From Utricularia gibba (taxonomy: Eukaryota > Streptophyta > Magnoliopsida > Lamiales > Lentibulariaceae), in contig NEEC01000014.1 of NCBI GenBank assembly GCA_002189035.1, positions 1,428,501 to 1,492,500 of the forward strand: 64,000 nucleotides of DNA, in the 5' to 3' direction. Below are positions 47,462 through 57,314 of the stretch, piece by piece. The translations under genes were made by a program, and so were the position numbers. Position 1 is the stretch's first letter. Each line of letters begins with the position of its first letter. A model generated the notes under the pieces. That model worked only from the letters and a program-made list of their open reading frames with translations. It was not told where the DNA came from and did not search any database.

Positions 47462-48946
47462 ATGGAGGAAGGAGGAGACGGGCGGCGCTGCAAACTGGGC
47501 TTCATTTTCTTCCTGGTGGTTTCTCTTGGTCTGACGACGTCGGCCGGAGGAGCTCGGGATGAAGAAGAGGTGAGGCGATCATGCGATAGGGATCTGAGCC
47601 TTGTTCTTCCTTATCCCTACAGCAGTTTGCCCAACATGGTCTGCAGATCTCTTTGGAACTCCTACTTGTTGAGAGTAAGTGTGCTGCTGTTGAATTACGT
47701 ACACGATTCAGGAATAACTCCGCATTTGCAGTACTCGAGATCGAGAAGCAACGAGCTGACGATCGTGGTGTCCACGATATACACCAGCGGATGGGTGGGC
47801 ATCGGATTCTCGCCGGACGGGAGGATGCTGAACTCGAGCTGTATGGTTGCTTGGGTGAACGGTGAGGGGCGGGGAAGGATACGGCAGTACAAGGTGAACG
47901 GATTGATTCCCGGCGAGATCAAACCGGATGAGGGGCAACTGCCTCTCACCAATGTTCCGCCCTACATGGCTCTCAGCTCCGCCACCATTTACTTGGCGTT
48001 TCAGCTCGATCTCAACCGGTCGCCGGAGCACCACATTACGCATCTTCTCCTGGCATTCAGCACCAAGAATCCTCACCATCTCCGTCTCACTCTTCACGAC
48101 GATAAAGTTAGCATCGGCTTTGATTTCTCATCGGGTACGTGTAGCTCATCCTGCAACCCGCTCTTTGCAAAACAGCATGCAATGGCGTGCGTATTGATTG
48201 AAAAACCTTGGTGAATACCTCTCCTGAGCAGGGGAAACAAAGGCAAGTGGAGCAGCTGATTCTTCTTCTTCATCATCATCATCATCATCTGCTGCAATCG
48301 TGAATGACATGAGGACAACTCATGGAGCACTGGCTATCTTAGGATGGGCTGTTTTTCTTCCTCTGGGTACAATTTTCGCAAGGTACCTGAAGAAGAGAGA
48401 GCCCTTTGGTACTATCTTCACGTCTTGATTCAGTTCGTCGGGTTTCTCCTCGGAGTCGCTGCCATCGTCGCCGGAGTGTCCCTCAACAACATACTCCCTG
48501 TTCCCGTCCCCACCCACAAGGGCGTAGGAGTTTTCATCCTTGTCCTCACCATTCTCCAGGTATGACACAGAAGATCTGCGCATTGATCATGATAACACGC
48601 CAATGAATCTGGATTTCACAGTCGGCTCCACTGAAATCATGAATCTCAACATCTCATCATTCAGGTTTTGGCTTTCTTTGGGCGGCCGAGCGACGGGAGC
48701 AAGTACCGCAACTGCTGGAGTCTGGCGCACCACTGGATGGGCAGAGTCTGCCTTGTGATGGGCGGCGCCAATATTGTTATTGGGCTCCATGTCGCTGGCG
48801 CTGGGACGCCGTGGAAAGCAGTCTGTGGGATGCTTGTGACTTCAGTCCTGTTAGCGGTTGTTGTTCTTGAAGTAGCACTGCGTCTGGAGAGGAAGAGAGC
48901 CAAAGCAGCAGGCGCCATGCAGCACCATGAAATGGCTGTCAAGTAA
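47462..48946 (+). CDS. DOMON and cytochrome b561 domain protein, one-base frame break in exon 3
   Basis: Four exons: 47462-47674, 47732-48134, 48232-48559 and 48665-48946. With one extra base they give 408 residues, the family size. Order: signal peptide (FIFFLVVSLGLTTSAGG), DOMON/AIR12-like heme domain (WVGIGFSPDGRMLNSSCMVAW, then ATIYLAFQLDL), a poly-Ser linker encoded by a (CTT)n(CAT)n run near 48261-48291, then a b561 core with helices in HGALAILGWAVFLPLGTIFARY, YLHVLIQFVGFLLGVAAIVAG, GVFILVLTILQVLAFFGRP, HHWMGRVCLVMGGANIVIG and a last helix near VTSVLLAVVVLE. Heme-ligand His are seen in HGALA, YLHV, THKGVG and HHWMGR. Such proteins are trans-membrane, ascorbate-linked electron carriers of the plasma membrane. 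The frame breaks at CCCTTTGG (48402-48409), where TTTT restores KREPFWYYLHV. Confidence 0.9.
48261..48291 (+). repeat. Trinucleotide run encoding poly-Ser linker
   Basis: (CTT)n followed by (CAT)n inside exon 3, read in frame as about ten Ser between the DOMON and b561 domains. Confidence 0.8.
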
Positions 48947-50343: not shown

Positions 50344-52655
50344 ATGGGGAGGGAGAAGATCGAGATCAAGAAAATAAGCAATGCAGCCGCAAGGCATGTG
50401 ACATTTTCAAAGAGACGTCAAGGTCTTCTGAAAAAGGCTCGAGAGCTATCGATTCTCTGCGAGGCGGAGGTGGCGGTGATCATCTTCTCGCAGTCCGGGA
50501 ACCTCTACCAGTACTGCTCAAGCTCCAAGTAATGACATTGCCCCGCTCCTTCCTTTCTTTTACTATAATCTATATAATGTGTGCTTTTGGTCTAACCCTG
50601 TGCTTGAGCCAAATGCATCATCTCTCCCCATCAACTTGCTTCACGATATAGAGACTCCTTCATTCATGCTCCACCTTCTTTTCCTTTTTAACGAGAGGTG
50701 TGTGTCTGCATGGCCTACGTGAATGTGTGTATCAAAAAGAGGCATTTCGACACAATAGTGTAGTTTGATGGGCTGAGGCGGCGCACCACCTTGGGCCTGG
50801 TTTGTGACTTGCGGTAGGAGGGAAACCGTACATGTTTTACCAGAATCCCCACTTGGAGTAGATCAGCTAGTGGATAAAGAGTAAATGTACATGGTTGGGG
50901 CTCCTAGATGGCTACAAGTGTTGATCTGACACGGAAACTGTAAAAAAAATGCCTGGTTTATATTATCATCACGCTTAATTGTAGAACTGAAAAAGCGAAT
51001 TACTGTTGGAAATGACAACTAGCATGATGTTGATATGGGGTGTAGTGCATTTGGCAATCCATGTAGATATAGGAACTCTTTAGGGGCTTTAAATGATCTC
51101 GCTAATAAACATACGAGTTATCTGGAGAAATTGCCACGCGGTGGTCAGCGGATAGATGAGCAGTAGTATTAAGAAGGATTTGATTTTGGGTGTATAGCGA
51201 CATTTTCATCCCACATCATAGGATGCAGGCACTTGTAGATGTTAAACATGGCCACCAGCTGGGCGGGGTTCTTTTTTAATTGGTTAGGAGAAATCTTTAG
51301 GGAGATTGTTTTCGCCGAGTTTCTCTTTAGTTACTAAGAGCTCCGTGGTTGTCTGAAGCATGGAGGATACACTCAATAAGTTCTCAATGCACATGGACTC
51401 GGAGCAGCAGCCGGTAAGTTCACTGGTACCTGTCCCATGTGCTCATTTTTTTTTTCTTCTTTGTAGAAAATCCAAAGCATATCTCTCTACCTGCCTTCTT
51501 TTTTCTTGTTTCAGGAAGGGAGCACAAGGCAGAATCAAATGAACAGGGGCGTTGAAGATGTGATGGATTACCTCAGGTTTGAATCACAGATACACCGCCC
51601 CACAACTTTTACATGCTAAAAAGGTTGCTTCAACTCAACTCCTGCAATGTTTAATTGTCATCGGAGCAGGCAAATCAATACTGAAAATTTTCTGAAGTTG
51701 AGCGAGGAAGAACTTACAAAGCTTGAGGTGAAGCTTGAAGGAATACTTGCATTAGTGAAGAATAGAAAGGTTCTGATCATCTGCACTTTAAAATTCCCAG
51801 TGATCTTGATATCAATCTTTACATGGTCAGCAGGTTTAACTTCTCATAGCATGTACTCACCGACAAGCAAAATGCAATTAAGTAGATAGTTTACCATAAA
51901 GGACCTTTTTCTTTAGGAATATCTACGCATTAGTATCTTTGCATCTGAAAGCTTTCAATGATCCTGCCAAATAATTTCAGGATTCTCACACCAACAATGC
52001 AGTCAGATGCCAATCAAGCGAGCTAAGTCACATACCTCATGAAGGTTCTGATGCAATGTCAGGAATCAGTACCAGAGGACTGTATTTCAAATACCAGCAA
52101 TTACAAAATGGTGGCCACTCAGAAGTAACTACTTATCCTGAAAGATGGACACCACCACCAACCGGTGTTTACAAAGTGAATTTTGCTGGAGTCACTATTA
52201 GTGATATGAATGTTTCTGGAGTGGGTGTGGGGATAGTGGTAAGGAACTGGAGAGGAGAATTCATGGCTGCTCAAGCAAAGTTCTGGCCTGAGTTGATGGA
52301 CGGCAGCACTACTTGTCTGTTTGCTGCTAAATGTGCTCTGGAATTTGCAGTATGCTATTCCTTCGTCCATATTTTGGTGGAAGGAGATGACCCAAGCACC
52401 ATCTACACTCTACAGAATATGCTGCAAGATCACTCTGTAGAATCTAATAATATAATCCAGGAAGCCAGAGGCTGCATGAGGCAACTTAGCAGTTGCGTCT
52501 TTTCACATCTACAAACATCAGGCAACACTGCTGCACATATGGTGGCACTATATGCAAAAAACGTTGCTGATGAAGATGTCTGGCTCATGGAAGAACCTGA
52601 TTTCCTTGTTGACATCCTTCTGACTGATAGCTCGGTTGAACCAATGATTCGCTGA
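50344..52655 (+). CDS. MIKC-type MADS-box protein fused to an RNase H-like (RVT_3) domain
   Basis: Five exons: 50344-50528, 51359-51413, 51515-51576, 51670-51769 and 51981-52655, all GT-AG, giving 358 residues. Residues 1-61 are a full MADS domain ([46 protein letters not shown]), closest in feel to the SVP/AGL24 group. Exons 2-4 hold a shortened I region and the first part of a K box ([16 protein letters not shown]). Exon lengths 185, 62 and 100 are the canonical MIKC ones. Exon 5, instead of the usual 42-base K-box exon, is a 675-base exon in phase. It encodes a linker and, from about 188 to 350, an RNase H-like fold of the PF13456 type: [54 protein letters not shown], then [17 protein letters not shown]. 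Only one of four catalytic acids (D270) remains, so it is probably a binding or structural module. Alternative: two genes or a read-through; one intron chain argues against it. Confidence 0.8.
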
Positions 52656-54644: not shown

Positions 54645-57314
54645 TCATGAAGGCAAGAAGGTGCACCCTTTGGCCTTGAGTTTTTTCTCTAAACCGAAGA
54701 ACTTGATTCCAGACAACACCGCCTCTGCAGCAGACTTCTTCATCTGCTCGCCGAGCATCTCCTCAAGAACAATCACATCAGCTTCGCGAAGCAATCCCGA
54801 CTCTTGCATCATGGAAAACACCCTCCTCGCCTCTTCTGTGGTTCCATGCTTGCACATGCCGTATATGATGGCAGAGTGAGTGATGCTGGTGCGCGAGCAT
54901 TCTTGTTCCGCCATTTCCTTCACAACCTCAACGACCCTCGCCGCGTCGTTCGACTTGCAGACATGGATGATCTTGATGGCATACTTGAACTCCATGGGGC
55001 TATCATCCACGTTAGCGAGACAGTCGTGAATCAGTGTGATTGCAGCATCTACCTCACCTTTCTCAGATGTGGCCTTGGCGAGGGAATGGTAGGCAGTAAC
55101 TGAAGGGAGTAAACACCTTTCCTTCATCAGGTTGTAGCAGTTGCAGGCTCCTTGTACATCTCCAGCTTTAGCAAAACACAAGATTGCAGTGCTGTAGGTC
55201 GTGGAGTCGAGCATCAGATTGGAGGTTTTGAGTTCATGGAAGAGACTGAGTGCGCTGGTGACTCCCCCTTTTCTAAGACAGCCATCCATAAGAGTGTTGT
55301 ATATTGGAATGCTTACATACTTTTCCATCTTCAAGTGCTGGAAGATCTCCAGAGCCACAGCTACTCCATTGTTCTTCTCCATGAGGCAAGAAAGGAATTT
55401 CGGTAGACCATCAACAACAGAGACTTTCATCCGTTGCATCTGTTCTATAACTCCATCAAACTCCTTGATCTTTTTTGATTCAACATAAGCAACTAGTATC
55501 GGATTAACCGTATTGAAATCTGGGAGGAGGTCTTGTCTAACAATCTCAAGGAAAAGTTTGGAGGCTTTTCCAACAAGCCCTGCATTGCACAACCCAGAAA
55601 TAAGGGAGCTGTATATTGTCAAATCGGCCCTATACCCAGAGTCCATCAAATCCTTGAGCATACCACAAGCCAAACCAATTCTCCCATCAGCTACATAGGC
55701 ATCAATCAATGATCCGTAAATCGCCCTACCAATCAAATATTTCCTTGCTTTCATCTCAGTAAACAGTTCATAAGCCTTATCTGCAAGATTTCTCTTGCAA
55801 AGAGCCATGATCAATGTTGAGTAAGCCATGACATCTGGTTCAATACCATCCTTTCGCATCTCCTCCCACACCTTGAAACAATCATCCAGGTTACCCTGTG
55901 AAACCAACACCTTTATCATTGCTGTGTAGGCAAAGACATCGGGTTTGCACCTGTTTCTTCTCATCTGATCCATAAGTTCCAAAACATCTTGGATTCGCCC
56001 CTCTTTGCACAAACCTTTAATCAGAATCATAAAGGTGATATTTTCCTCAAGTAAACCTTCATTCTTGAAGTCACTGTAAACAGACAAGGCCAAATTCATA
56101 TGATCTGTCTTAACTAATGCATCTAATATTCGATTGTACAGGAAGACCCTTGGTTTCACTCCATATTTCTTCATCTTTTGATACACATGGTATACCCTCA
56201 GACCCCTGCCTGCATCAGCATGCATTCTAATCAATATCTCAAACTGTTTCTCGCTGGGTGACTTCCCTTGCATATGCATCAGCTCAGGCACCTGGTCAGC
56301 ATCACGAAAGTGATTTGCACGGTTCAAAAAATATGCGAAGGCATTATAGCATGCAAAATCATGCCTATACCCTTTCTGTTTTCCTATAAAAAAGACGAAC
56401 CAAATCGTAAGCTCAAATAACAAATGATGAACATGCATGCTAAATAGAACATGTTGGATCTTCCCTAATTCTTATATCCTTAGAAGGGAGGTTAGGGAAG
56501 AGTGTACTAAAACGAAATGCAAACCTATTCATTCACATGTTGCTCTGATGTACACAATGAAATCAACCTCATTCCTGTATCCTCTATGACTAAACTTCAG
56601 CAAGAAATCTCATTCACAAATTCAGTAAGCATCATGGAATCGTGAATTCAATGTCACAACCTGGACACATTAGTTCCACCTGACTCCCATATTCTCTATC
56701 TTAGAGAACATAATTAGACACCTGCAAATCTACTCACTCCACAAGCAAAACACCTTGCCAAATTCATTTGATTTGAGGTGGCAGTGTTAAGCTAACTTCT
56801 AAAAGAATACTCAGTTCAAGCACATGAGATCAGATGCAGAGAGAAGGGAATCTGATTATAAGCAATGTAAGTTCTCATTTACCAGCCCAATGGAAAAGCT
56901 TGGAGGACAGCTTAGGATCAACGAGCGGAAACTGAAGAACCTCTGCCACCAGTTTCGGTGTCACCCGGCGGAGCCGATTAAGGTCCGTTACCAATTCGAG
57001 GTTCCAATGCTTGTGTTTTCTAAAAGCATCAACTATGTATCTGGCTATAGGAGACAGCTTCTTCGCCAACAAGAAAAATTTCTCAGATGGGTCTGTTCCA
57101 AGAGGTGGTCTTTGGTTAAGTTTTTCATCCGGGTCCCATTTCTCAAGGTCGAAAAATGGCTGCGAAACAGCAGTTGGTTGACTAGAGTTCCTGGGACTTT
57201 GACGGTTGGAGAAAAATCCGCCTCTGACGGTGGGCGATTCTGGGTTGGTTTACGGTGGCCGTAGAAGAAGTACGGCTTCTGAGGCCTGTTGAGCACCGCC
57301 TTGGCTGGTGGCAT
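54645..57314 (-). CDS. P-class pentatricopeptide repeat protein (At4g20740 type), one-base frame break in exon 1
   Basis: Two exons on the minus strand, 56883-57314 and 54645-56383, with an intron of 499 bases. With one extra base in exon 1 the product is 723 residues, matching the Arabidopsis homologue. The N-terminus MPPAKAVLNRPQKPYFFYGHRKP is the conserved family start, followed by a basic, possibly mitochondrial leader. At least a dozen 35-residue PPR motifs follow (for example KPRVFLYNRILDALVKTD, KPDVFAYTAMIKVLVSQG and EPDVMAYSTLIMALCKR), ending FFGLEKKLKAKGC. P-class PPRs bind organellar RNA; the target is unknown. The frame breaks at A5/T3 (57074-57081), just before LLAKKLSPIARYIVDAF. 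Splice phases around the intron agree only if one base is missing there. Confidence 0.93.

Follow-up and report, generated by a model that had tools for sequence, protein, structure and literature searches.

A 64,000-nucleotide stretch of the Utricularia gibba genome (contig NEEC01000014.1, positions 1,428,501 to 1,492,500 of the forward strand; hereafter the window) was found to contain a MADS-box transcription factor gene in which one terminal exon, encoding an RNase H-like domain of the RVT_3 family (PF13456), occupies the place of the K-box exons that follow the first half of the K box in ordinary MADS genes. The fusion is a MADS factor carrying a domesticated domain of the mobile-element type and, as far as sequence comparison tells, is common to several Lamiales families and not unique to the window gene. 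Computed in this study were its frame, its conservation, the selection acting on it, the fold predicted for the RNase H part and the loss of two residues of the catalytic site. No paper describing a MADS-RNase H fusion was found among the open-licence papers listed; PMC3985635 and PMC10282084 likewise gave nothing on it, MADS not turning up in the former. Public databases hold gene predictions of the same architecture, for example under the name 'MADS-box transcription factor 47-like'. The fusion is probably a conserved, previously undescribed kind of gene regulator.

Gene Model and Domain Architecture

The window gene consists of five exons separated by four introns, all with GT-AG borders, and its spliced frame of 1077 nt encodes 358 codons plus a stop (Table 1), exactly reproducing the coordinates and frame of the original prediction. 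In the Pfam analysis of the spliced protein, PF00319 (MADS) scored 84.8 bits against a cut-off of 26 and PF13456 51.9 bits against 21.6, so the suggested HMMER comparison with these two profiles placed both above the cut-off. The K-box profile reached 18.7 bits, under its cut-off of 30, indicating that no complete K box is present. The predicted combination of a complete MADS domain, half a K box and an RNase H-like exon is therefore borne out. Exon 5 gave no significant match to any Pfam family besides RVT_3, the flanks not having been scanned for reverse transcriptase. A long interspersed nuclear element (LINE) retrotransposon was also considered as an identity for exon 5 and rejected, as no reverse transcriptase is joined to the RNase H domain within the exon.

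Table 1. Features of the window gene (window positions) and the additional K exon of the second U. gibba copy.
Feature	Position	Strand	Remarks
Exon 1	50344..50528	+	Complete MADS domain (PF00319 at residues 10-57)
Exon 2	51359..51413	+	Intervening (I) region; length of 55 and phase identical in second copy
Exon 3	51515..51576	+	First K-box exon, 62 nt
Exon 4	51670..51769	+	Second K-box exon, 100 nt, phase 0 at its end
Intron 4	51770..51980	+	Counterpart intron in second copy contains the 42-nt K exon
Exon 5	51981..52655	+	Linker, RNase H-like domain and stop
PF13456 (RVT_3) match	52182..52547	+	Inside exon 5; 52 bits, cut-off 21.6
First catalytic Asp position	52185..52187	+	Ala203; Ser in second copy
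Catalytic Glu position	52314..52316	+	Cys246; the other nine have Ser or Thr
Third catalytic position	52386..52388	+	Asp270; retained in 10 of 10 fusions
Fourth catalytic position	52536..52538	+	His320; Tyr in second copy
In-frame K exon, intron 4 of second copy	L011:6213-6254		42 nt, RDVLMSEVPALQSK; AG/GT borders

A Second Copy in the U. gibba Genome

The genome searched comprised 100.09 Mb in 516 contigs. A partner of the MADS exon, 82% identical, was located at C328:1315489-1315668, and the only other genome match of the exon-5 protein (E ≤ 0.01), 55% identical, lies about 2.3 kb past it on the same strand. The resulting gene model of 339 codons has five exons with phases 2, 0, 2, 0, as in the window gene, and contains both domains. 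The first Met of its exon-5 frame falls within the RNase H domain; therefore, the domain in this copy cannot be a separate ATG-started protein.

The 42-nt K exon in intron 4 of the second copy resembles a segment of a Buddleja protein and, less closely, Gesneriaceae proteins, and for this reason it is probably an optional cassette. It was not recognisable in intron 4 of the window gene, where the alignment was matched by 202 of 500 shuffles. When 115 MADS proteins without RVT_3 were compared by tblastn with the sequence past exon 4, no remnants of ordinary MADS C-terminal exons stood out, the matches being at chance level (best E 0.059 among the matches listed).

Fusions in Other Plants and Origin of the Exon

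The protein searches covered candidates of suitable length with short exact word matches to the query. With exon 5 as the query, eight proteins were retrieved at E ≤ 0.001 among 187 candidates, and all eight matched both PF00319 and PF13456. Six are named, from Buddleja alternifolia (Scrophulariaceae; one), Andrographis paniculata (Acanthaceae; one) and the Gesneriaceae Primulina eburnea (two), Primulina tabacum (one, assigned to the family by its genus) and Henckelia pumila (one). The remaining two are frames of 357 codons on a 2007-base contig and 331 codons on a 1240-base contig. We read the latter contig as spliced RNA because 331 codons take up so much of it that introns as long as those observed here would not fit; the case of the former is less clear. 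Together with the two U. gibba copies these proteins make up the set of ten fusions used for the Pfam and residue counts below. In this set PF00319 and PF13456 were matched in every member and the K-box in nine (E ≤ 0.01). The fusion goes beyond chance, since the second copy shares the exon and phase pattern and both domains, and since all eight database matches are fused.

A profile search with exon 5 retrieved 15 proteins at E ≤ 1e-5 among 1115 candidates, with the same eight fusions on top, followed by seven without a MADS domain. The seven include RVT_3 proteins, among them those of Quercus and Juglans, and the disrupted-looking P0009 and P0011-P0013. These last four are short proteins whose matches cover the fused RNase H exon only partly, with apparent frame disruption around the match.

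In an unrooted tree of the MADS and K parts (43 rows), the fusions used, eight of the ten, formed one clade (100/99), as a single origin predicts. The replacement most likely occurred once, before several Lamiales families diverged. The window copy is the first to split off among the fusions used, the second copy included (96/82), while a tree of exon 1 leaves this order open.

The idea that a retroelement-derived exon replaced the 3' K-box exons stands as regards the replacement and the RNase H fold. The direct source may have been a LINE or an RVT_3 gene domesticated beforehand. Among the closest proteins lacking a MADS domain are predictions from Quercus and Juglans that contain RVT_3 only. 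No copy of a source element was found in the U. gibba genome, where the exon-5 protein matches only the two fusion copies (E ≤ 0.01). RVT_3 matches as such occur in at least 81 places of this genome, many of them with stop codons. PF13456 is entered as a reverse-transcriptase domain in one publication (PMC8641386).

Fold, Active Site and Selection

A predicted model of the domain gave structural matches to RNase H proteins, including 2qkb, the human RNase H point mutant D210N in complex with a hybrid. Taken with the PF13456 score, this agrees with the RNase H fold proposed for exon 5. The set of catalytic carboxylates (Asp, Glu, Asp, then Asp or His) is incomplete in the fusions. The first Asp is replaced by Ala or Ser in 9 of 9 fusions, the tenth, P0008, being without that segment, and all ten have Cys, Ser or Thr instead of the Glu. 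At the fourth position nine fusions have His and one has Tyr; the Quercus protein lacking a MADS domain likewise has His there. RNase activity is unlikely, judging by the loss of two catalytic carboxylates. At the C-terminus, the motif VWLxxEPxxLxxILLxD is, apart from its variable positions (x), invariant in 10 of 10 fusions.

Two relatives illustrate the difference. The Quercus lobata RVT_3 protein LOC115990962 (P0010) belongs to the same family and has a C-terminal stretch alignable to VW..P..L..L/D, but its first Asp and Glu are intact, whereas the fused domain lacks both. The archaeal-type RNase H1 of Halobacterium salinarum (4e19), which shares 20% identity with the fused domain, is an active enzyme with its carboxylates intact.

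Omega was computed between the two U. gibba copies, that is, for one pair. For exon 1 (60 codons) it was 0.064 (p = 4.4e-12); over the 163 codons of the RNase H part it was 0.280 (p = 1.5e-8). Selection has maintained the RNase H part since the duplication. The conservation and purifying selection by which the fusion was to be judged are thus both seen, with 8 of 8 database matches fused and this omega over the RNase H part.

The MADS Part and Its Subfamily

Arg17, Lys23, Arg24, Lys30 and Lys31, which we take to be the DNA-contact residues of the MADS domain, are present in 10 of 10 fusions. With these five basic residues kept, DNA binding is likely retained. When five fusions were aligned with ordinary MADS proteins, the homology ended past the K stretch closing in LQ.K, midway through the K box, in line with the proposed loss of the 3' K-box exons. 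In work on SEP3, the K part that follows this point in ordinary MADS proteins is said to carry the tetramer interface.

The MADS part likely belongs to the SVP/StMADS11 branch (SHORT VEGETATIVE PHASE, JOINTLESS, DAM), although this is not settled. The fusions share the MADS domain, the I region and the first K-box half with these MIKC factors, but their K box stops after exon 4 (or after the 42-nt exon) and an RNase H-like domain stands in place of the usual C-terminal exons. In the exon-1 tree (62 columns), for which 39 own-genome MADS exons were used from 40 fetched of 89 matches, the fusions adjoin SVP-type rows (89/88). The unrooted MADS and K tree does not decide the subfamily. For the K part, the SVP structure 7xgs was the best match among solved K domains. 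An SVP-like expansion in U. gibba, with five members of one orthogroup, is described in a published study (PMC4350169), in whose text neither 'RNase' nor 'fusion' occurs.

AGL15/AGL18 is the other candidate, differing in its K-profile rank and its position in the exon-1 tree. With the K profile, the best AGL15/AGL18 row falls below six SVP-type rows (two Pyrus DAM and four conifer) and above three Salvia SVP/JOINTLESS rows. In the exon-1 tree, AGL15/AGL18 rows are separated from the fusions by a weak branch (25/91).

Proposed Mechanism and Alternative Explanations

The explanation we favour, and consider somewhat more probable than not, is the following. A MIKC-type MADS gene, probably of the SVP/StMADS11 branch, would have had the exons past the first K-box half replaced by one terminal exon encoding a retroelement-kind RNase H-like (RVT_3) domain, most likely once, before several Lamiales families split. 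The MADS part would still dimerise and bind CArG-type DNA. As the K-box stretch joining dimers into tetramers is missing, the usual tetramer contacts would not be usable. The RNase H fold, retained without its active site, most likely offers a new C-terminal docking or oligomerisation surface, and this surface would determine the partner proteins recruited by the MADS dimer to its sites. We infer both the DNA binding and the docking role of the fusion protein.

Several observations weigh against this explanation. The joining of exons 4 and 5 in U. gibba is predicted from genomic sequence, and a spliced transcript across them is presumably made. No fusion turned up for other Lamiales such as Olea, Paulownia, Salvia and Forsythia, which were present among the matches listed. 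Since none turned up there, and since P0009 and P0011-P0013 look decayed, some lineages can apparently do without the gene. The two U. gibba copies are without a conserved neighbourhood over at least 31 kb on each side (open frames of at least 40 codons, tblastn E ≤ 1e-8); besides the fusion gene, only two flank stretches match (E 8e-11 and 7e-16), and these are on opposite sides of the two copies, upstream in one case and downstream in the other. Constraint is weak in exons 2-4 (omega 0.384, 70 codons, p = 0.028) and not significant in the linker (0.655, 46 codons, p = 0.35). As to the subfamily, 120 of 414 matches were listed, and of the 115 without RVT_3, 42 have visible names containing AGL15 or AGL18 (counted by eye), making it the commonest subfamily name. 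Ranked by the K profile, the three Salvia SVP/JOINTLESS rows come at only 107, 108 and 112 among 115. In addition, the full-length model, made for the Buddleja protein P0001, is poor (mean predicted local distance difference test score, pLDDT, 41.7), and the arrangement of the two parts is not readable from it.

The fusion could also be a product of prediction, uniting two adjacent genes, or a retroelement remnant with the short MADS gene next to it. A possible start codon at 52056 in window exon 5, ahead of the RNase H domain, would suit this, as would the fact that the database fusions bearing names are gene predictions. However, the phase-0 junction is identical in both copies and the second copy has no start codon ahead of the domain, the domain is under selection, the exon-5 database matches are fused in 8 of 8 cases and the whole fused frame stands on the single 1240-base contig. 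We regard this explanation as improbable. Even less credible is a working RNase H tethered to DNA through the MADS domain: the fold is present, but the first Asp is gone in 9 of 9 fusions and the Glu in 10 of 10.

Two explanations carry more weight, both of them still unlikely in our opinion. The slightly better one is a dominant inhibitor, in which the truncated K box ties SVP-like partners into dimers incapable of forming tetramers and the RNase H domain is a mere stable cap. The loss of the later K-box part in the five aligned fusions and the looser constraint in exons 2-4 and the linker would be expected of such a protein, but the omega of 0.28 over 163 RNase H codons and the invariant C-terminal motif are more than a cap needs. 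The other takes the domain as a non-cleaving nucleic-acid binder that reads RNA:DNA hybrids (R-loops), so that the factor would be guided by both a DNA motif and local transcription. It draws on the retained fold and single catalytic Asp, and on the hybrid complexes of the human mutant (2qkb) among the structural matches. The metal-binding carboxylates are part of the RNase H site that grips the scissile strand, and the loss of two of them speaks against it; moreover, the present results fit a protein-docking role equally well. In its boldest form, which we hold to be more doubtful still, the fusions would be Lamiales-specific MADS regulators whose dead RNase H domain senses such hybrids, steering a developmental factor towards genes where nascent or antisense RNA lies at the sites it binds.

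Neighbouring Genes

Upstream of the fusion gene, at 47462-48943 on the plus strand, lies a gene whose first open stretch encodes a DOMON domain (PF03351, 34.3 bits, cut-off 32.7). Its third scanned stretch gave no Pfam match; the gene is presumably of the DOMON/cytochrome b561 type. Downstream, at 54648-56471 on the minus strand, an open frame of 608 codons encodes pentatricopeptide repeats (PF13041, 232 bits).

Significance

Transposon-derived transcription factors, FHY3 among others, are named in the literature (PMC10027918). The fusion likewise has a mobile-element domain within a transcription factor, but as the C-terminal part added to an existing MADS factor. In FHY3-type factors, the mobile element typically contributes the DNA-binding part. 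The fusion clearly exemplifies how a retroelement-type protein can be incorporated into a host regulator and stay under selection once its enzyme site is lost. The MADS, I, K, C architecture is thought to be very stable in seed plants. A conserved gene in which the tetramer-forming half has been swapped for a mobile-element fold provides a natural experiment on the function of that half.
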